Of a stretch of DNA of 28,143 nt, positions 14,365-27,948 are shown piece by piece. A program made the translations under genes and the position numbers. This DNA is from a virus: positions 1 through 28,143 of IMG/VR virus record IMGVR_UViG_3300028299_000022; one strand, written 5' to 3'. Within the stretch, counting starts at the first letter, position 1, and every line of letters begins with the position of its first letter. Under the pieces are notes generated by a model that did no database searches, was not told the origin of the DNA, and worked only from the letters and a program-made list of their open reading frames with translations.

Positions 14365-14721
14365 CTAATTTTCTTTCCTATCTACTTTTATCTGGCTTTT
14401 ATCACACTTAGAGCAATCTAAATCGGGCTTTGCTTTCTTACAGGCTTTGCAATAATCACTTTCCAGCCTGACACGATCCTTCTCTTTAGGAACAAGAGCG
14501 GCAATAACCGATTCTCGAAATAATTCTTCTCTCAGACGGTGATCCATGTAGGGGACACTCTCTTTAGGAGTAGCCCCCCACAAAATTAAGTCTCGCTTGG
14601 AGATGTCTCCTCCGCTAAGGAGGAGGACAACTTCGCTAATGAACTGATCTGTCCTGGCACTTCGATCTTCCCGATCAGCTTCTCTATTTTTTCGAGATAT
14701 ATAGCTGTCGGGTTGCATTCG
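14365..14721 (-). CDS. Tail assembly chaperone T frame, made as G-T by -1 frameshift
   Basis: This frame lies -1 relative to the G-like gene and encodes about 118 residues after the slip (RMQPDSYISRKNREADRED and on). It has an ATG at 14718 but no ribosome site, and its frame is closed by TGA only two codons upstream of the slippery T TTT TTC. It is therefore expected to be made only as a G-T fusion of about 214 residues. The C-terminus carries CKAC and CSKC pairs (DYCKACKKAKPDLDCSKCDK), a probable zinc-binding site. In lambda, the T part of G-T binds tail tube subunits and delivers them to the tape measure complex. The gene lies between tail tube and tape measure, where this chaperone is normally found. 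Confidence 0.85.
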   Translation of the reverse strand, partial: RMQPDSYISRKNREADREDRSARTDQFISEVVLLLSGGDISKRDLILWGATPKESVPYMDHRLREELFRESVIAALVPKEKDRVRLESDYCKACKKAKPDLDCSKCDKSQIKVDRKEN

Positions 14722-15008
14722 AAAAAATCTTCAATCACCATAACCATCATTTTAACAGGTATGTGAAATCCCAAAAACTCCGAAAGGGAAGTCAAATCCT
14801 TATCCTTTACAGACCCCCCTTTCTCAGTTAAAACAACGGCCAGAGCATCAGGCATTTTGTCACCAATCAATGAAATTATATCCATTGGAGACACGGCTTC
14901 AGTTAGATCAACACCTTTTAAGACAGCCAGTAATTGCCTCACTTGCCCCCATACAAGAGGCTTCTGAACAAATTCCCGTCCTTCTATGGTATAGCTTGTC
15001 TCTTCCAT
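14586..15008 (-). CDS. G: Tail assembly chaperone, lambda G-like
   Basis: The protein has 140 residues, with ATG at 15008 after AAAGGAGTGTTTTAAT. It is mostly helical, opening MEETSYTIEGREFVQKPLVW and continuing with GVDLTEAVSPMDIISLIGDK. There is no Cys-rich part and no membrane segment. G coats the tape measure protein during tail assembly and is absent from mature virions. The reading frame overlaps the T frame by 136 nt, and a canonical slip site sits at codons 95-96. G and G-T thus share only the first 96 residues, whereas in lambda the slip is close to the end of G. The unslipped tail (residues 97-140) is Ser/Lys/Glu-rich. Placement between tail tube and tape measure strongly supports the role. 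Confidence 0.85.
   Translation of the reverse strand: MEETSYTIEGREFVQKPLVWGQVRQLLAVLKGVDLTEAVSPMDIISLIGDKMPDALAVVLTEKGGSVKDKDLTSLSEFLGFHIPVKMMVMVIEDFFECNPTAIYLEKIEKLIGKIEVPGQISSLAKLSSSLAEETSPSET
14670..14727 (-). promoter_or_regulatory. Programmed -1 frameshift signal for G-T
   Basis: The heptamer TTTTTTC (14727-14721) is in phase X XXY YYZ with the G frame (GA-T TTT TTC), so both tRNAs can re-pair after slipping to TTT TTT. An 8-nt spacer (14720-14713) follows. Then comes a bulged hairpin: CCCGA (14712-14708) with TCGGG (14674-14670), CAGCT (14707-14703) with AGCTG (14680-14676), and TCTC (14697-14694) with GAGA (14684-14681), around a 9-nt loop. One A bulge and a 5-nt ATATA bulge interrupt it. 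The -1 frame is blocked by TGA just upstream, so this is effectively the only workable site. Confidence 0.85.
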
Positions 15009-19298: not shown

Positions 19299-20504
19299 TT
19301 ATTCTGCCGACTTGGCGTCGTTGATTAAGCAGAAGGATTGACCATGACGCGGAGCAATGTCAACTTCCTGAAGAATTCTGATCCAGGTCTGATCCTTCTC
19401 GAAGGAATCATGAGCTTCCTGAGAAGCCATCATTTCCATACCACCCCACTGACCGATCATTAACTCTGCCCAGTTGCCGAAATAGACTTCGGTCAAATCC
19501 GTTCCTGTAGTGCCTTTGGTCAGATTAATAGGAATCTGTGTGGTCATTTTGTAGGGGTATCCGAGCCAATTCTGGAACACGGACTCGGTGATGGGAGCAA
19601 TGATGTACTGCCCACCTGTATCACCACTGTACTGAGCAACCTTCAACTTGAGCAACTTCCGTCTGATCGCCGGATGGAAAATGTATCCCAGCTTGCCTCT
19701 CAAGGCATTGTCAACAGCCAGTTCGTACTCCATGTCAATCAGATTGTCAAAGGTCAAATTCCCACCATTGGTGCCGATTGCTACCGTATTCAAATCAGTG
19801 GCGATATTTACGCCAGACGGCTGATTCGAAGATCCGGAGCCTCTTAACGCCTTCAAGTCGATCTGAAGAGCAATGGCTGTGGCGATGTCACTTCGAACAA
19901 GAGCTTCTGCCGAAGGATTCGACAGTTTGACCAAGGTGTTGGAAAGCTTTACCAACGCCCCGACTTTCTTCGGGGTCATGGTGAGCTGACCAAGGGTCAA
20001 ATCAGATGGTGTAATGGCAATATTCTCACCAACCCAATACCCCGTAGCTCCACCGGTCTGTTTGGGAATCTGCACCGGAGAACCAACCAATCCTGAAAGG
20101 ATTGTGGCGCCGGAGGCGACGACTACAGACTCCGCCCGTAAAAGTTCAATGATCTGAGCAATGTATTCCGCAGGCACGATGTACGCACCCGCTGAACCAG
20201 CACCCAGACCGCCCATATCCTTTACCCGTTTGCGTGTCTCGGCAAAGACCTCTTTCTCATATCCAGCCTCAGACCAATCATTCCAACGCATGGCATGAGC
20301 TGCTCTGAAGAAAGAGAACACATCCTTCCCTATATCAACACCAGGCAAGGACACCTTTCGCGGAACAACAATGGCTTCAAGGTCTTTCATCTTCTGATCC
20401 AGACGAGCAAAGTCCTGACGAAGCCCCTCATTCATCTCACCAAACTGATCGATGAGATTCTTTTTGTGTTCTGCGAGTGCCGCTTTAATCTGTTCCAACA
20501 TCAT
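19299..20504 (-). CDS. Major capsid protein, HK97 fold
   Basis: The protein has 401 residues, with tandem ATG codons at 20504 behind AGGAGGAAACGTAA. Residues 1-50 form a coiled coil (LIDQFGEMNEGLRQDFARLD), the scaffold-like delta domain removed by the prohead protease. After about residue 85 the HK97-fold body begins: GGLGAGSAGAYIVPAEYIAQ, ATILSGLVGSPVQIPKQTGG and GYWVGENIAITPSDLTLGQL, followed by PKKVGALVKLSNTLVK and the P-domain helix, then NPSAEALVRSDIATAIA. The end has YFGNWAELMIGQWGGMEMMA, typical of this family. The length and the neighbours (protease just upstream, portal further upstream) match the HK97 head operon. The delta domain suggests no separate scaffold gene is needed. Confidence 0.95.
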   Translation of the reverse strand: MMLEQIKAALAEHKKNLIDQFGEMNEGLRQDFARLDQKMKDLEAIVVPRKVSLPGVDIGKDVFSFFRAAHAMRWNDWSEAGYEKEVFAETRKRVKDMGGLGAGSAGAYIVPAEYIAQIIELLRAESVVVASGATILSGLVGSPVQIPKQTGGATGYWVGENIAITPSDLTLGQLTMTPKKVGALVKLSNTLVKLSNPSAEALVRSDIATAIALQIDLKALRGSGSSNQPSGVNIATDLNTVAIGTNGGNLTFDNLIDMEYELAVDNALRGKLGYIFHPAIRRKLLKLKVAQYSGDTGGQYIIAPITESVFQNWLGYPYKMTTQIPINLTKGTTGTDLTEVYFGNWAELMIGQWGGMEMMASQEAHDSFEKDQTWIRILQEVDIAPRHGQSFCLINDAKSAE

Positions 20505-20554: not shown

Positions 20555-22093
20555 TCACTGCTCCTTGCCTGATGGCGGAACTGAAAATATCTTTTTCATC
20601 TCTTGATTAATGTCCGCAACAAATTCCTTAACATAAGAAACAGCTTCTTCGTTTGCTTCCTCTGTACCAAGACCAAGCGATAAACGAATTCCATCTGACA
20701 TCTCCTTCAGTTTTTCAGGACTGACGGTGTCTTCAATGTCCTCTTCCTCTGCCTCCGCAGAAGAGTCCCCTTCTTTTGGAATAATCACAGGGGTTTCTTC
20801 TTCTGCCAGGTCTGTTTCCTTTTTCTCATCGGCTGGTATTAATGTTACAGGGGTTTCTTTCTGCACAGAAAGAGCATTGACCCCATCCCGAATCTCAATC
20901 AACATGTCTTTCAAGTCCCGAAGGAAGGTCTTGTCAACGTAGACAATCATTTCCAACTCATGACTATCTTCAAAACTCAGGGCTGCCCCTTCCTCATCAA
21001 AATCAACGTAATTGGTTTCCCAGATGACATCCACTTCCTTAATAGGATGATCTTTGTACCACTTCTTCGCTTCCGCCATCGTCCATCCATCAGCTTTCGG
21101 AAAACGTAAAGACTGGATCGCCCATTCGTCTTTGCCTTTATATTTCCCGTAAATGCCATTGACTCTCGGCTTCGTTTTCTTGAGGGAAGTATAACGAAAT
21201 TTTTCGAACAAAGATGGGTCTTTCAAACGGTGACGAATTTCCTTTTCTGTCTCCTCCCATTTCTTTGCCTCAATTTCTAATGCCTCCAACTGCTCTGGAG
21301 TAAGGGCTACTTCTTCCTGTGGGTCCGATTCTTTTCCAGGACCAGGACGTTCCACTCTTCGCATCTCTCCACCACATTTTGGGCATTTGATATCCGAACA
21401 ATGCTTGGCAGATTCCACCTTATGGCTGCATTTAATACACTCGCAACTGAATTTTTCTTTGTTCTCTTCTTCTTCAGCCACTTTCTCCAAAATAAGTGTT
21501 TCAATATCCTCAAGCTCTTTAAGGAAAGGATCATCCGGATTCAATTCCTTCAAAAACAACTGAATCTCCTCCTCCATCTCTTTTGACACCACACCAGAGT
21601 CAAAGCTTCTCTGCAATGCCGATGGGTTAGCCGGAATCAGAACCTGACTTGTCTCCAACAATTCAATTTCTGTGTAATCGCATCGACTACCATCATGCTT
21701 CTTTGATTCCTCGTCATTATGCTCGACATAAGAAACAGGGATAAAACCGATGCTGAACGCAGCGATTCCTTTCTCGGCAAGCTTCCAGCCCCAATCCGCT
21801 TCTGGATTTCCTTCACCAACATACCATTTGGGACGAGCAACCACCTCATTCCCCTCGATCTTGATTTTTTCAAACTCACCGATCTGATTCATCAGACCAC
21901 GATAAGCATGAGAAGAAAGCAAAACAGGGTGCTCCATAAAAGACTTGATTGTTTTCTTAAAAGAAGAAGCCAAGACTCGCTCGCCGTGCCTGTCCAATAC
22001 TTCACTGGAAATCACAACCTCCGCTGTGTATTTCGTAGGGTCGATACTCCTCACTTTAGCCTTGAAATATTTAATTTTCTTGTTGGCTGGCAT
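20555..22093 (-). CDS. Prohead protease with zinc ribbon and long acidic C-terminal extension
   Basis: The protein has 512 residues, with ATG at 22093 after GGGAGGTAAAGAAT. Residues 1-165 are an HK97-type serine protease: FMEHPVLLSSHAY with the likely catalytic His62 (or His55), GIAAFSIGFIP with Ser114, and EIELLETSQVLIPANPSA with acidic Glu145/147. Residues 217-240 are a zinc ribbon with Cys217, 219, 222, 232, 237 and 240 (CPKCGGEM). Residues 285-350 are a basic/aromatic module (FRYTSLKKTKPRVNGIYGKY, FPKADGWTMAEAKKW). The remainder is acidic, with a helical end (LKEMSDGIRLSLGLGTEEAN). The usual protease is about 200 residues, so more than half is added. The extension may act as an internal scaffold or bring the protease to the portal. 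Confidence 0.9.
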   Translation of the reverse strand: MPANKKIKYFKAKVRSIDPTKYTAEVVISSEVLDRHGERVLASSFKKTIKSFMEHPVLLSSHAYRGLMNQIGEFEKIKIEGNEVVARPKWYVGEGNPEADWGWKLAEKGIAAFSIGFIPVSYVEHNDEESKKHDGSRCDYTEIELLETSQVLIPANPSALQRSFDSGVVSKEMEEEIQLFLKELNPDDPFLKELEDIETLILEKVAEEEENKEKFSCECIKCSHKVESAKHCSDIKCPKCGGEMRRVERPGPGKESDPQEEVALTPEQLEALEIEAKKWEETEKEIRHRLKDPSLFEKFRYTSLKKTKPRVNGIYGKYKGKDEWAIQSLRFPKADGWTMAEAKKWYKDHPIKEVDVIWETNYVDFDEEGAALSFEDSHELEMIVYVDKTFLRDLKDMLIEIRDGVNALSVQKETPVTLIPADEKKETDLAEEETPVIIPKEGDSSAEAEEEDIEDTVSPEKLKEMSDGIRLSLGLGTEEANEEAVSYVKEFVADINQEMKKIFSVPPSGKEQ

Positions 22094-22114: not shown

Positions 22115-22348
22115 TTATTTAATCTTTTTAAAACCTAAGCACTTGCCATCAGCGTCAAGGTGAACATCCATACAACCACATTGATAAACCCCAGGCATCG
22201 GGCTTACATTGAATGCACACTCGCCATTGTCGCACGTCAATCCGACCTTCCTTAACAAGCACCCGTTTTCCGTCCATTTTTTACATTCCTTAGCTTCACA
22301 GAAGTATCTTCCTTCAGCCTTCTTCCAAGTAACTTTTGATTTACTCAT
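22115..22348 (-). CDS. Small eight-cysteine protein
   Basis: The protein has 77 residues, with its ATG overlapping the portal stop by 4 nt (ATGA) and AAGGAG just upstream inside the portal gene. There are eight cysteines, at 17, 22, 30, 39, 44, 57, 59 and 70, spaced as CEAKEC, C-x8-C, C-x4-C, C-G-C and C. There is no signal peptide, so zinc binding in the cytoplasm is more likely than disulphide bonds. I do not recognise the family. It sits between portal-methyltransferase and prohead protease and is translationally coupled to the portal. It could be a small zinc-binding assembly factor or a partner of the methyltransferase domain. No function can be asserted. Confidence 0.7.
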   Translation of the reverse strand: MSKSKVTWKKAEGRYFCEAKECKKWTENGCLLRKVGLTCDNGECAFNVSPMPGVYQCGCMDVHLDADGKCLGFKKIK

Positions 22349-22941
22349 ATCACTAACTCCTTTTGCAATAGATAAACGACTACACTATGAATGTGAGTGC
22401 CATTTTCATCCTTATCCTTAGTTTCAAAGCGCCACTTATCTCGCACTTCTAAAGAATTCTTCTTATACAACTCCTCAATTTCACTGATTTTGAAATTGAT
22501 CTCCGTTCTGTCCTCCTCCCCACCAGGAGTATAATATGTCGTTTTGATGTAAAGGTAAAGCAGAGACATTCCTTTATTCTTTAATACCCTGCTCACCTCT
22601 TTAATACTTGCATCCATTTTAGTGGAATGAAGAACGGACAAAGAATAAACGAGATCAAAAGTATTTCTTCCAAAGCGTAAAGCTTCCGCATCCCCAACTT
22701 CAAAGGAAACATTCTTCAGTTTGTTATTCCCTTTAGCAATTTCCACTGCTTCAGGCGACAAATCAATTCCAATGACATTATAACCCTGTTCCCCAAAGAA
22801 AATAGAGTCCCGACCATTACCACATCCTATATCAAGAACATTGGAGATGGTGGTATTCATCATTTCTGCTTTCACTGCCGCTTTTGCAAGAGGGGAAGGA
22901 TTCAAACTTGTTGCCCAATGAGGGTCATTCTTCCAAGCCTC
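22345..22941 (-). other. Class I SAM-dependent methyltransferase domain (C-terminus of portal)
   Basis: This is a domain of the portal protein, not a separate gene: no start codon with a ribosome site separates it. The motif I loop is D-I-G-C-G-N-G, followed by the acidic ribose-binding position in VIGIDLS, the adenine-contact GDAEAL and the motif IV-like FDLVYSLSVLH. It ends in a long beta hairpin (HIHSVVVYLLQKE). The absence of an NPPY/DPPY motif argues against a standard adenine or cytosine-N4 DNA methyltransferase, and the absence of a PC motif argues against a cytosine-C5 enzyme. The substrate is unknown. Confidence 0.85.
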
Positions 22942-25900
22942 AATCCAATCGTCTCTCGACATATCCTGTTTCGTAATAGCGAGAGCAGTGTTAATCTCTT
23001 TCCTTGCTCTTTCCATTTCAATGTTCCTGCCAAAATAAAAAGCTGTGTCAACTTCGTTCTCTGCTACAGTATAACTTTTCTGCGTCAAGTAATTATATAT
23101 CTCCCGTACCTTCTCAGCAAAAACCTCTTTATCATTACCATTTTTACTCTTAAATTGCTCAAAAGCATCTATTAAATTGCCTATTAGGGCTTTAAAATTG
23201 CTTACTACAAACGAGGTTTTTGCATCAATAAAACGGGCAATTTCTGCGTCGTTGCCATTTGAAGGCTGTTCTGAGCTTGCGCCTATCTCATTCCAAACAG
23301 AATATTGTCCTCTGTAGACAGCAGTGAAGAAAACTTCCTTTAATTCTCGCTGAAGTTTACCATAACACTTCTCAGATCGATCAATATCCCTATCTTCATA
23401 TACTGCCTCAAGAGCATCCTTTCTCTGATTAAAAAGCAATGTCTTAATCTTTGCTTTAAACTCCTTTTCGATTGGTTGTTTATATATTTGATAAGGATTG
23501 TTTTCGATCATTGGGGTTTTTACCATCTCAATTACTTTCTTTGATTCTTCTTTCGGAGCTTCTGGTTTGTCCTTCCCTGGAGCTTGGTTCTGTGCTCCAC
23601 CATGAGCCATAATATAAGCATAAGAAGAATAACCTCCAGGAATGAAGGCGTCATTGCCCCATTTTACGTCCTGCATACCAAGCTGAAGTCTTTTGTTTAT
23701 CATATTGATTGGCCAACCCATACTCCACATAAGTTTGGCAGTAACCACCTTATCCTTATAATTCTCCTGCAATGCTCCGACAGTGGCAAGATCAAACTCA
23801 CCCCAAATTCTCCCCTTGCCTCTGCGGACACCTATCCTGGAGAAGAACTTCGCCCAAAGCACTTCTTCAAAATAAGTAACCTTCGGCATCAAGCACTCTT
23901 CCCAAAACGCCTTGTGTGCTGCCTTTGATCCTTCATAGGACTTCACGTCCTTAAAAAGCCCCAATACGACTTCGTTCACACTGTAGGCGGCAAAGATTTC
24001 CTCACGGGACATCTTCTTGCCATCGATAAATTCCATGTCCCGCTGACCAAGCCTGCTTTCTGTGATCTTTGCTCCACCTTCTGCAATAACAATCCTATGC
24101 GCCTTCTTTGATCCTTTATGCCTATCTTCAAACTGCTTCAACATCCTATCATAACTATCATCATTCAACTCTTCCGGTACAGTGATATTCAAAGATGTGA
24201 CCGCCCCATTCTCGAAGAATACCTTATTATACATCGATGCATGATAATCTGACTCTACGCTTAACTTGGATGCTTCGAGTGGGGATAATCCTCGTAAATC
24301 ATTGTATGGATTAAACATTTTGAAATGGATGATTTGGCTCAGAGGGAATATTACTTCTATTTTCCCCGAGTATTTCCAACCCAACAACCAATTTGTTTTT
24401 ATATCTATCACAGGCTCAAAGCGGGAAGGTGGAAATGTCCATATCTCTTTAGGTATCTGGGAAACATCGTCTCGTCCTTCAAGAATCCAAAAGGCTTCAC
24501 CAGCCATTTCATAGAAACCGAAAGTGGCCTCAATCAACTTACTCAAGGTCATCAGAGGATTTGGATTTTGAAAAAGTTCGTAAATTGGTCCTTCTTCAAC
24601 TCTCTTTGGCTCAATATCGTCTCCAGCGTCTTTGCGAATGATAAAAGGAACTCTTGCTATGTTTGACATGATGGCATTGATGCAATTATGAGTGGCAACA
24701 CCAAATGCCAAATAAGAATGCTCCTTCCTCACCTCCAAATTAAAAACAGGTAGGTTGTTGACCTTCTCATATCCAATTTTATTAACTGGAAACTTTGCAT
24801 ATCCTTTTTCTATAGCACAAATACTTTTACCAGCATTCCACGAACCCTTCTCCTTCTTCCAAAGCATGTTTTTAAAAATCAAATTTGCCCTTCGTTTATA
24901 ACCCCCACCAATTCTTAATCGGAAACTATCACGACAATCACACATTTGGTTAATTACCCAACGTCTACAACCTTCTTTTTTAAAAACATAAGGAACAATC
25001 CCTTGTCGCAACAGCAAAAATCTTAATCCTTCAACAAGAGAAGGGGAAATTGTATCAAGATTAAAATCACCATTAGGACTTTCACAACCATCCCCCCTCC
25101 AAAACCCCCTCAAGAGGAACATTGTTTTTTCAATTGGGAGTTTAGCAACCCAATCAGGTATCTTCTTATAAGATGCCCCGGTTCCAAACAAAAGGAAAAA
25201 GTCACTGGCTATTCTTGAATTAAAAAGAACGGAAACCCTTCCCTCAGAAGGTGCTTCCAAAGAATGACTAATACCAAAACACTTTTGCATCAAGGATTTA
25301 GTCTCATCAACAAAGAAACGCTCCTCAATAGAAAAGGTAAATTGCACTGTGCTGGGAAAAACTCGACCAGGACCACACTTCTTAACTCGTACATTTCCTT
25401 CGGCCAAATAATACCCTATCAACAATAATAGATCATTATTAACAAGGACCTCCTGTTCATGTTTTTTATATTTATCCTTCCTTCCTTTATTCTCAACTTT
25501 GACAACCCATTTCTCCTTGTCCTCTATAATATCAATAACAGGTGTTAGTAAATAATCACCAATCTGAATGTCCTTAGTCTCTACCCATTGCCTGCCTCCG
25601 TCCCGCTCCACATAAAATGGATGCTCTGAAGTAGCTTGAATAGGAGGAAGGCCATTGCATTTCAAACTAAACAATTTACCAGTATAATCTAAAATTTTTA
25701 CCTCGATCACTTCATCCTGCTTACCAAGATGATTGTAAACAACATCTCCAACTTCCATATCTTCAATGTTACAAACACCATTATCAGTTAATATCGGTGT
25801 GCCTGCCGGAAAGCAAGCATACACCCAAACAGACTGTTTGTAAGGCTGCTGCACTACAGCAGAATAAGGACCAAGCAGTTCTCTCAAGGAGCGAAAAATA

Positions 25901-26028
25901 CGGTGATCATCAATGAGAGGACCAACAACACCCTTCATAGCATGTCTCTGCTGACGAGAATATTCCCACGACAACAGATTGTAACCAACTTTACCAACCA
26001 ACTTCTCAAACATGCTCTCTCCTCTCAT
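22345..26028 (-). CDS. Portal protein with LAGLIDADG intein, Mu gpF-like segment and C-terminal methyltransferase domain
   Basis: This 1227-residue precursor should give an 850-residue protein after splicing. Residues 1-71 and 449 to about 800 form the portal: WVYAC interrupted before the conserved CINAIMSNIARVPF, then IIHFKMFNPYNDLRGLSPLE, and FFENGAVTSLNITVPEELND, and EIFAAYSVNEVVLGLF. The intein spans residues 72-448. About 860-1030 is helical with SYTVAENEVDTAFYFGRNIE, resembling the start of a Mu gpF-type minor head domain, whose later W/D/R/H part is not seen. Residues 1030-1227 are a class I SAM methyltransferase: VLDIGCGNGRDSIFF (motif I near 1064), VIGIDLS, GDAEALRF, FDLVYSLSVLH. No NPPY-type DNA-MTase motif is visible, and it looks closer to TehB/UbiE-like enzymes. 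An ATG 5 codons downstream is an alternative start. The portal call is firm. Confidence 0.92.
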   Translation of the reverse strand: MRGESMFEKLVGKVGYNLLSWEYSRQQRHAMKGVVGPLIDDHRIFRSLRELLGPYSAVVQQPYKQSVWVYACFPAGTPILTDNGVCNIEDMEVGDVVYNHLGKQDEVIEVKILDYTGKLFSLKCNGLPPIQATSEHPFYVERDGGRQWVETKDIQIGDYLLTPVIDIIEDKEKWVVKVENKGRKDKYKKHEQEVLVNNDLLLLIGYYLAEGNVRVKKCGPGRVFPSTVQFTFSIEERFFVDETKSLMQKCFGISHSLEAPSEGRVSVLFNSRIASDFFLLFGTGASYKKIPDWVAKLPIEKTMFLLRGFWRGDGCESPNGDFNLDTISPSLVEGLRFLLLRQGIVPYVFKKEGCRRWVINQMCDCRDSFRLRIGGGYKRRANLIFKNMLWKKEKGSWNAGKSICAIEKGYAKFPVNKIGYEKVNNLPVFNLEVRKEHSYLAFGVATHNCINAIMSNIARVPFIIRKDAGDDIEPKRVEEGPIYELFQNPNPLMTLSKLIEATFGFYEMAGEAFWILEGRDDVSQIPKEIWTFPPSRFEPVIDIKTNWLLGWKYSGKIEVIFPLSQIIHFKMFNPYNDLRGLSPLEASKLSVESDYHASMYNKVFFENGAVTSLNITVPEELNDDSYDRMLKQFEDRHKGSKKAHRIVIAEGGAKITESRLGQRDMEFIDGKKMSREEIFAAYSVNEVVLGLFKDVKSYEGSKAAHKAFWEECLMPKVTYFEEVLWAKFFSRIGVRRGKGRIWGEFDLATVGALQENYKDKVVTAKLMWSMGWPINMINKRLQLGMQDVKWGNDAFIPGGYSSYAYIMAHGGAQNQAPGKDKPEAPKEESKKVIEMVKTPMIENNPYQIYKQPIEKEFKAKIKTLLFNQRKDALEAVYEDRDIDRSEKCYGKLQRELKEVFFTAVYRGQYSVWNEIGASSEQPSNGNDAEIARFIDAKTSFVVSNFKALIGNLIDAFEQFKSKNGNDKEVFAEKVREIYNYLTQKSYTVAENEVDTAFYFGRNIEMERARKEINTALAITKQDMSRDDWIEAWKNDPHWATSLNPSPLAKAAVKAEMMNTTISNVLDIGCGNGRDSIFFGEQGYNVIGIDLSPEAVEIAKGNNKLKNVSFEVGDAEALRFGRNTFDLVYSLSVLHSTKMDASIKEVSRVLKNKGMSLLYLYIKTTYYTPGGEEDRTEINFKISEIEELYKKNSLEVRDKWRFETKDKDENGTHIHSVVVYLLQKELVI
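24685..25815 (-). mobile_element. Intein with LAGLIDADG homing endonuclease in the portal gene
   Basis: The 377-residue intein runs from Cys72 to Asn448 of the portal precursor. Block A starts CFPAGTPILTDNG; block B is ATSEHPF near residues 131-137; two LAGLIDADG-type motifs lie at about 200-210 (LIGYYLAEGN) and 302-315 (FLLRGFWRGDGC), each with its acidic residue intact; block F/G ends HSYLAFGVATHN followed by extein Cys449. All splice residues (Cys1, His-Asn, Cys+1) are present. The insertion cuts the conserved portal motif YA|CINAI, so unspliced product should be inactive. Intact endonuclease acids suggest current or recent mobility. Confidence 0.95.
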
Positions 26029-27308
26029 ATCACCCGTATACGAACACCGGCCGCCCCTTTAGTTGAATTGTGTATAGCATATCTTTTCGCATCCATCAAG
26101 TGATTTGCCCAATCGATAGGAATATCAAGAACATTGCCATTCTTATCCTTCCGCCAAGAATAACTCCGATGCTCAGAGATGAGATCAACACTACCACTAT
26201 AAATATGGCAAACCATTCTCTTAACAGAATCAATCCCAACCTGAATTATCTTATGGGCGGCCTTGGCATTGAACCCCGCTCTTCGGATCTCTTCGATTCT
26301 ATCAGGTTCAGCAGAATCCGCCCATATTATACGAGAACGTCTGAACTCCTTTGGAATCAAACTTTGCAGCTTTAAGATCAAGTCTGAGTTGGTGAGATTC
26401 TTGTGATACAACAACTGCTCTTCCCAGCATTCCTTCCCTTTGATGTATTCCTTAATGAGAGCAGTCGGCATATTATAACCAAAGTCAAGACCATAAGCGA
26501 TCTTGTCAACGGCTCCTTCATCAGGCAGCCAGTCTACAATATCCCAGTTCTTGTAGATCAAATTCTCAAGCCGCCCCCAATTGCCCAGCGTGAAGATATT
26601 ATACAACGAAGGATCCTGCGTCTCAAGATCGAGAAGCATCTGCACGTAGTCTTCTGGCAGGAATGGATTGTCTTTGTAGTTAGATATTATTTCTTCTGCA
26701 TGAATGGTTGGATCGTCTACAATCTTCGTCTTGATCCAGTGATGCTCATCAATTGGGTTGAAGCTAAGGAATATCTGATTGCGAAGACCGTCTCTCGAAG
26801 GCTCCCTAACGCAGAAACGAATGTCCTGGAAGGAATCATAATCTATTTCAGTAGCTTCTTCAATCCAGACATAGTTCCAGTTAGAGGATCGAATCTTAGC
26901 GGCGTCGTCAACAGAACCATAATGAAGCAAAGAGCCATTGTAATACCAATTCAGATGAACCTTCTCTTCAATGATCCTATCCCTGACACCATATTCCATA
27001 GCGAGATCATTCATCAGAGGGTACACTGACTGGCGCAGGGATGGCAGAGACTTACGAAGTATGAGTATTTTCTTCCTCTCCTCAGTGAAGAACTTATAAT
27101 GCATGAGCTGGGCTAAACTGTGGCTTTTGGAGCTGCCCCTCCCCCCCCGATCAATAACGATAGGCGCCTTTGATGCCTGGTTCCTGAAGAAAATGTCGGT
27201 AGCGACAAAAGAAAGCTCCCGCTCCTCAGGATTCTCATCATGCAATAACTCGTGCAAGTAATCCTCAGTCTGCGCCTGAGCTTGAGCGACCTTACTCCGT
27301 CGTGCCAT
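26025..27308 (-). CDS. terL: Terminase large subunit
   Basis: This 427-residue protein starts at ATG 27308, chosen for its GAGGAAGG ribosome site. A TTG six bases upstream is less likely. The ATPase domain has a Walker A motif, GGRGSSKS at residues 55-62, and a Walker B motif, VWIEEATE near 147-154. The nuclease domain has three metal-binding Asp residues: YGLDFGYN (Asp275), WADSAEPD (Asp331) and HLMDAKRYA (Asp406). The arrangement and the 'RGGRGSSKS' P-loop match the SPP1/PBSX-type terminase family. It packages DNA into the prohead through the portal. Its start overlaps the end of the small subunit gene, and its stop overlaps the portal start. The C-terminus is slightly basic (GVRIRVI). Confidence 0.96.
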   Translation of the reverse strand: MARRSKVAQAQAQTEDYLHELLHDENPEERELSFVATDIFFRNQASKAPIVIDRGGRGSSKSHSLAQLMHYKFFTEERKKILILRKSLPSLRQSVYPLMNDLAMEYGVRDRIIEEKVHLNWYYNGSLLHYGSVDDAAKIRSSNWNYVWIEEATEIDYDSFQDIRFCVREPSRDGLRNQIFLSFNPIDEHHWIKTKIVDDPTIHAEEIISNYKDNPFLPEDYVQMLLDLETQDPSLYNIFTLGNWGRLENLIYKNWDIVDWLPDEGAVDKIAYGLDFGYNMPTALIKEYIKGKECWEEQLLYHKNLTNSDLILKLQSLIPKEFRRSRIIWADSAEPDRIEEIRRAGFNAKAAHKIIQVGIDSVKRMVCHIYSGSVDLISEHRSYSWRKDKNGNVLDIPIDWANHLMDAKRYAIHNSTKGAAGVRIRVI

Positions 27309-27921
27309 CAGCAACCTTCCTCTTAAACTCTAAAACGGTCTTCTGAGCACCCATCTTCTTCCGAGTAGCCGCATCCGCTTTAGAAGCAGGAATGATCCTT
27401 ATCTTAACAGGAGCTTTCCTTGACGAAGCAACCGGGGCTTCCATCCAACCACGAGATTTCCCTAAACACTTCAGCATGAAAATCATAGCAACCGTATCCT
27501 GTTTATTACGAATCTTGTCCATCAAATGACATTCCACCTCATCGATAAGAGCCTCCCGAAACTCTTCAAACATCTTTGACAGAGAAGGATACTTACGCAA
27601 TACATTCTTCACGTGATAGACAGACAAGGATAACTTACGAGCAATGTTCGTAATCAGCCCTCCAGAAGTCCAGATAGCTTCCTCAACATTCCCATAAGTA
27701 ATCTCGCCAAACACCTTCTTAGTGCGAGACACCTTGGCTCCCTTGGTAGAAGTGGCAGCTTCCCACATCGACAAGTCTCTGTCTGCATTATAATTAGTAA
27801 GAGTTGTAATATCTGCTATGATTGGTTTTGTAGGAGGAATCTCTGGGGTGGGAATTCTGCTCTTCCTTTCAGGAGTTGGCACACTCTCTTCCTTATTATC
27901 ACGTGATACAAGCCGAGCCAT
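27292..27921 (-). CDS. terS: Terminase small subunit
   Basis: This 209-residue protein starts at ATG 27921, chosen because GGAGGTGAT lies 8 nt upstream; the longer frame from 27936 starts at that ribosome site itself. Residues 1-75 are Pro-rich, basic and probably disordered. Residues 78-112 look like a helix-turn-helix (EEAIWTSGGLITNIARKLSL, YHVKNVLRKY). The following helical part (EALIDEVECHLMDKI) and a further hydrophobic helix (TVAMIFMLKCLGKSRGW) would form the oligomer ring. The C-terminus is basic. The protein recognises the packaging start site on phage DNA and recruits the large subunit. It sits directly upstream of terL and downstream of the only gene-free stretch, which probably holds its binding site. 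Confidence 0.9.
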   Translation of the reverse strand: MARLVSRDNKEESVPTPERKSRIPTPEIPPTKPIIADITTLTNYNADRDLSMWEAATSTKGAKVSRTKKVFGEITYGNVEEAIWTSGGLITNIARKLSLSVYHVKNVLRKYPSLSKMFEEFREALIDEVECHLMDKIRNKQDTVAMIFMLKCLGKSRGWMEAPVASSRKAPVKIRIIPASKADAATRKKMGAQKTVLEFKRKVADGTTE

Positions 27922-27948
27922 GAGCATCACCTCCATTACTACATTCGA

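Follow-up and report, generated by a model that had tools for sequence, protein, structure and literature searches.

The portal gene of a viral DNA stretch of 28,143 nucleotides (IMG/VR record IMGVR_UViG_3300028299_000022, positions 1 to 28,143; hereafter the window) continues without interruption into a class I S-adenosylmethionine (SAM)-dependent methyltransferase and is followed by a small open reading frame (ORF) encoding a cysteine-rich protein of 77 amino acids. The two appear to constitute a mobile two-gene phage cassette, of which the methyltransferase is recurrently joined in frame to the C-terminus of a portal or another head protein. This architecture is well supported, as the sequences compared directly reveal the fusion, the strict pairing with the cysteine-rich ORF, several switches between head partners, and purifying selection acting on the two genes. 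A first-pass annotation of the window had recognized the fusion and the type of enzyme, both of which stand, but had overlooked the cysteine-rich partner and the widespread occurrence of the two genes as a mobile cassette.

The fusion ORF (Table 1) consists of a single unbroken ATG-to-TGA frame of 1,227 codons. A second, independently assembled contig (IMGVR_UViG_3300028298_000008; 62,634 bp) encoded an identical fusion ORF, with 99.86% DNA identity over the region, which makes an assembly error very unlikely. The portal part matched the Pfam family Phage_portal (E = 1.6e-54) and is of the HK97 type, with scores of 185.7 for PF04860 (cut-off 39.1) and 112.9 for TIGR01537 (cut-off 112.05); the gene order terminase-portal-protease-capsid is also that of HK97-type portal modules. 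It is interrupted by an intein, identified by PF14890 (37.5; cut-off 35.8) and by the residues C72, H447, N448, and C449 (the +1 cysteine). Excision of the intein joins VYA to CINAI, giving the same portal sequence as in relatives and a spliced product of 850 amino acids, the length that the first-pass annotation had proposed. The portal part is followed by the first half of a MuF (gpF-type) domain, which had been suspected as well. Indeed, no Pfam match to PF04233, the complete MuF domain, was found in the window, and a profile of this segment and its relatives aligned with full MuF domains (hhalign probability of 96.6%; E = 5.9e-10) until just before the conserved H...CxC half. The region originally highlighted (22345-23460) covers the tail of this MuF half and the methyltransferase. 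An internal translation start at Met1023 was considered and rejected, as a Shine-Dalgarno (SD)-like site was found neither in the window nor in most fused members of the enzyme family.

The C-terminal domain matched Methyltransf_25 (E = 2.9e-21) and Methyltransf_11 (E = 6e-21) in Pfam over residues 1064-1154 of the fusion protein. A score of 76.4 bits (cut-off 27) and the presence of GxGxD and D67 place it among the class I SAM-dependent methyltransferases (Methyltransf_11/25), and an AlphaFold2 model of the domain reached a mean pLDDT of 89.6. The domain is complete, and the motifs quoted in the first-pass annotation are present. Among the 40 distinct family members described below, motif I (GxGxD) and D67 (the motif II acid) were retained in 38-40. 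Residues W6, W16, G46, G50, D52, D67, H112, R125, and Y138, which comprise SAM-binding and candidate active-site positions, occurred in all 40, and D185 and H192 in 39; W6, W16, H112, R125, Y138, D185, and H192 look catalytic or substrate-binding. The closest solved structures were small-molecule, TehB-type, and Trm112-associated methyltransferases. Methanosarcina 6MRO, TehB, PH0226, and Hvo_0019-Trm112 share the fold and the SAM-binding motifs with the window enzyme at about 20% identity, and Hvo_0019 likewise works with a small activator protein. The window enzyme reached no NCBIfam equivalog cut-off, TehB (53.9 bits versus 218), BioC, UbiE, UbiG, and ArsM all remaining below (best score 59.8 bits versus 460). 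The (D/N/S)PP(Y/F/W) or PC motif of DNA methyltransferases was absent after strand 4, where the window reads FDLVYSLSVLHST and the family consensus is FDAVFSLSVLHST, in line with the first-pass annotation; a DNA methyltransferase (N6A, N4C, or C5C) was rejected because this catalytic motif IV is not present. DNA, one of the substrates initially envisaged, is thus disfavoured, since a D/N/S-PP-Y/F motif is lacking and the nearest folds are of the small-molecule and Trm112 types. In this respect, the enzyme differs from P1 DarB, a virion head protein (PMC5512222), which also brings a methyltransferase domain into a phage head but is a DNA adenine methylase-helicase, whereas the window domain has neither a DNA methyltransferase motif nor a helicase. 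A known defence system was rejected too, because the methyltransferase resembled Mad2 of MADS only in a generic way and the partner gave no match.

The pairing of the two genes was examined in viral contigs, the loci of which are designated by L-numbers. With the 77-amino-acid ORF as a probe, 12 loci were retrieved, and with the alignment of its family 40; in all of these, the gene immediately preceding the ORF encoded a methyltransferase belonging to one and the same family. The reverse scan with the methyltransferase family yielded nine further distinct cassettes, each with a cysteine-rich ORF directly downstream, and 11 weaker, more distant viral methyltransferases, all of them standalone and none of them with such an ORF. 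In total, the cysteine-rich ORF follows the enzyme gene in 40 of the 40 distinct members counted for the methyltransferase family; a few family members end at a contig end, where pairing could not be judged. All neighbourhoods examined were structural modules; around the cassette of L101, ORFs resembled, by eye, T4-type neck and tail-sheath genes. The ratio of nonsynonymous to synonymous substitution rates (dN/dS) was about 0.04-0.08 in most of the pairs that had diverged measurably and higher in a few very close pairs; both cassette genes are under purifying selection. The cassette looks like a reusable phage-head enzyme unit and not a one-off accident.

The partner family is characterized by seven invariant cysteines, which probably bind a metal, and by a near-invariant MDVHLDAxGxC tail. 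DUF1540, another small cysteine-rich domain, gave a weak match in three of ten partner proteins (best E = 5e-4) and none in the window partner itself; unlike DUF1540, the phage family is marked by its conserved tail. A PDB sequence search revealed no similarity of the partner to Trm112. The window partner is 81% identical to the partners of L022, L024, and L099, yet the methyltransferases of these loci are just 35-39% identical to that of the window. Conversely, the window methyltransferase is closest to that of L044 (63%), the partner of which is only 53% identical to the window partner. Overall, partner and enzyme still co-vary (Mantel r = 0.45). The partner thus shows higher conservation than the enzyme and is exchanged between distant enzymes, a pattern more readily explained by a general subunit or activator than by a cognate immunity protein.

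Thirty of the 40 family members carry the methyltransferase as the last domain of a longer protein, in most cases a portal, so that the alternative of an enzyme always encoded separately in homologues fails. At least four portal families carry it, comprising PF04860 portals (for example L022, L024, L025, L030, L034, L039, L045, and L058), PF06381 portals (L023 and L033), Mu-type PF06074 portals (L035, L038, and L051), and, in L044, a phrog_30703 portal that also has a complete MuF domain, resulting in a portal-MuF-methyltransferase protein. The sole protease case is L028, in which the cassette lies inside the gene for an S78 prohead protease (L028:3310-5510), with the N-terminal part of the protease fused to the methyltransferase, its C-terminal part located downstream, and the cysteine-rich domain fused to a second cysteine-rich region. 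This phage is close to that of the window (portal 58%, capsid 64% identity), but carries the cassette on the protease instead of the portal. The partners of L100, L069, and L067, which are like tested relatives, and of L073 and L088, which are portal-like, were assigned from their resemblance or location and not by a profile. The portal-like protein of L088 is 49-55% identical to separate ORFs of L041, L050, and L057, in which an adjoining gene encodes the enzyme. Fused methyltransferases without an assigned partner family occurred in L018 and L043/L084; in the latter (IMGVR_UViG_3300033064_003586), the enzyme forms the end of a polypeptide of 1,662 amino acids or more, the frame of which is open at the locus end and the first 1,459 residues of which had no counterpart in Pfam (E <= 1e-6) or among the PHROG families. 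Three members were standalone (L037, L099/L101, and L077), six had an N-terminal extension of just 50-80 amino acids (L041, L049, L050, L056, L057, and L065), and L075, located at a contig end, was placed in neither a fused nor a standalone class. Partner class changed at least 13 times on the methyltransferase tree, an approximate number given that this is a quick tree with 14 weakly supported branches. Most fused junctions had no SD-like site and many no start codon at all, whereas the standalone gene of L037 is preceded by a strong SD-like site (-10.6 kcal/mol), so that the enzyme must be translated as an extension of the head protein. As the same enzyme has repeatedly been fused to proteins of the head interior, selection for a location in the head is the best explanation.

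Relatives of the window phage, sharing 44-58% portal identity, indicate how this arrangement may have arisen. L004, L007, and L009 possess the same truncated MuF segment without a methyltransferase, L006 has a complete MuF domain (PF04233; E = 2.8e-12), and L011 (5640-8348) combines a full MuF domain with a C-terminal PBECR2 nuclease (PF18810; E = 4.4e-18), predicted to be a virion RNase effector. Since relatives lacking the methyltransferase share the truncation and others have a full MuF domain or PBECR2, the C-terminal slot is variable and truncation of MuF probably preceded the gain of the methyltransferase. In L004 and L007, the protease gene directly follows the portal gene, and in L009 (3038-3514) and L010 (1967-2443), an ORF with a NUMOD3 motif takes the place of the cassette between portal and protease. 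Together with the intein in the window portal, this ORF marks the stretch between portal and protease as a hot spot for insertions. L006 and L008 contain an intein-like insert in the large terminase, as opposed to the portal intein of the window.

The explanation preferred here, although tentatively, is that of a head-tethered two-component methyltransferase effector module, as a variant of the effectors that virions carry fused to portal or MuF proteins. HK97-type portals have their C-terminus inside the prohead, which is also where the prohead protease is located. A position of the methyltransferase at the portal vertex, already assumed in the first-pass annotation, would be natural for such a fusion, and the up to 12 copies at this vertex and the injection into the host that it also envisaged are possible. 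The head protein would hold the enzyme inside the capsid (in the portal crown or prohead core), and catalysis would involve the cysteine-rich protein as a general activator or subunit. This virion-borne effector would methylate some molecule of the host while the genome enters or shortly thereafter, perhaps once the prohead protease encoded next to it has set it free; its substrate, the moment at which it acts, and its delivery are all inferred. The best precedent is formed by the polyvalent proteins (Iyer et al. 2017; PMC5512222; for effectors fused to portal or MuF, see also PMC5576092), in which PBECR, 2H, and InPase effectors fused to portal or MuF are proposed to travel in the virion and to be delivered together with the genome. 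As in these proteins, an enzymatic domain is fused to a portal and encoded in the head module, but none of the effectors named in the part of that study drawn upon is a class I methyltransferase; the window family further differs by its obligate, conserved cysteine-rich partner gene and by the occurrence of the same domain on at least four portal families. A portal-methyltransferase fusion or a methyltransferase/cysteine-rich pair was not found described in the open-access literature searched. Three points weigh against a delivered two-component effector. Firstly, portals stay in the head, and injection would require cleavage. Secondly, a minority of the cassettes is standalone or has a short extension, and thus fusion is not essential. 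Thirdly, the fold of the cysteine-rich protein could not be predicted (pLDDT 45, an unusable model) and its role is a guess.

The main rival, itself rather unlikely, is an enzyme of the assembly stage, which would modify a virion component (a capsid or internal protein, the cysteine-rich protein, or packaged DNA) during head maturation or packaging while bound to portal or protease, and would not act on the next host. Anchoring to proteins of the prohead lumen indeed places the methyltransferase at the packaging site, and the overlap of the partner ORF with the fusion stop codon makes it probable that the two are translated together with the late head genes. However, most relatives of the window portal (L004, L007, L009, and L011) have no cassette, indicating that head assembly can do without it, and the absence of motif IV argues against packaged DNA as a target. 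A toxin delivered by the phage, with the small ORF as immunity protein, is improbable. This would correspond to the MuF toxins (Jamet et al. 2017; PMC5576092), which likewise combine a C-terminal domain in the packaging module with a small ORF, in the window immediately downstream with an ATGA overlap; the PBECR2 nuclease in the same slot of L011 and the shuffling of the C-terminal domain fit this idea. The window and most family members nevertheless lack a complete MuF domain, only its first half aligning in the window, no known toxin domain is present, and a partner with seven invariant cysteines that is more conserved than the enzyme and not cognate-specific is unlike typical immunity proteins. 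A selfish or neutral moron, inserting behind head genes with its read-through fusion tolerated without a function in the head, would agree with the insertion hot spot and the standalone versions, but is disfavoured and given very little credence in view of the strong purifying selection on both genes, the invariance of the putative catalytic residues, the recurrence of in-frame fusion across unrelated portals, and the absence of a homing nuclease from the cassette. Lastly, an assembly or sequencing artefact joining two genes, which the first-pass annotation had kept in mind, has nothing in its favour and is refuted by the two near-identical contigs and 29 other distinct fused family members.

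Table 1. Features of the head module in the window, all on the minus strand.
Feature	Position	Strand	Basis or remark
Portal::intein::portal::MuF-half::methyltransferase ORF	22345..26028	-	1,227 aa; 850 aa once intein spliced
Portal N-extein, residues 1-71	25816..26028	-	54-57% identity to L004/L009/L028 portals
Intein with LAGLIDADG homing endonuclease, residues 72-448	24685..25815	-	PF14890 E = 2.6e-9; PF14528 E = 7.8e-9
Portal C-extein, HK97-type PF04860, residues 449-839	23512..24684	-	57-58% identity to L004 and L028 portals
Truncated MuF (gpF-type) first half and linker, residues 840-1022	22963..23511	-	hhalign; without H...CxC second half
Class I SAM-dependent methyltransferase domain, residues 1023-1227 and stop	22345..22962	-	Pfam, AlphaFold2, conserved motifs
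77-aa cysteine-rich partner ORF	22115..22348	-	Start overlaps fusion stop codon (ATGA)
Prohead protease (S78), next downstream of 77-aa ORF	20555..22093	-	PF04586 E = 2.3e-4; putatively acts on prohead proteins
HK97-type major capsid protein	19299..20504	-	PF05065 E = 1.4e-52
Large terminase subunit	26025..27314	-	PF04466 E = 1e-34
ORF in small-terminase position	27292-27936	-	No family match

The head module of the window thus runs from the ORF in small-terminase position and the large terminase gene, via the portal ORF and the 77-amino-acid ORF, to the genes for the prohead protease and the HK97-type capsid protein. A tail-assembly chaperone pair of the G/GT-frameshift type may be encoded by two overlapping ORFs (14365-15008, minus strand) that precede the tape measure gene. 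On the sister contig (1-40000; L061 and L062), many ORFs resemble, by eye, glycosyltransferases and radical-SAM enzymes as well as an aminotransferase and another methyltransferase, and together they suggest a modification of sugars or surfaces by the phage. Among GTDB contigs, no relative of the window portal and one weak generic methyltransferase match were found. The partner ORF had no match in 299 Bacillota genomes, which says little as no positive genome is known, and no credible homologue in the phage and plasmid collections.

Most enzymes known to be fused to portals are isolated cases. The attachment of one enzyme family behind at least four kinds of portals, always with the same partner, is strong evidence that a location in the head is selected. 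With its natural fused, split, and standalone versions, the cassette offers a defined two-gene system for asking what phages bring in with their DNA and why, and the partner protein is a specific marker to find further such systems. It is conceivable, with due reserve, that these cassettes represent a widespread, undescribed class of two-component virion enzymes, in which a methyltransferase is anchored in phage heads via whatever portal or prohead protein is available, together with a conserved cysteine-rich, metal-binding subunit, and which may be delivered to the host or act on it when the genome enters, serving generally in counter-defence or takeover.
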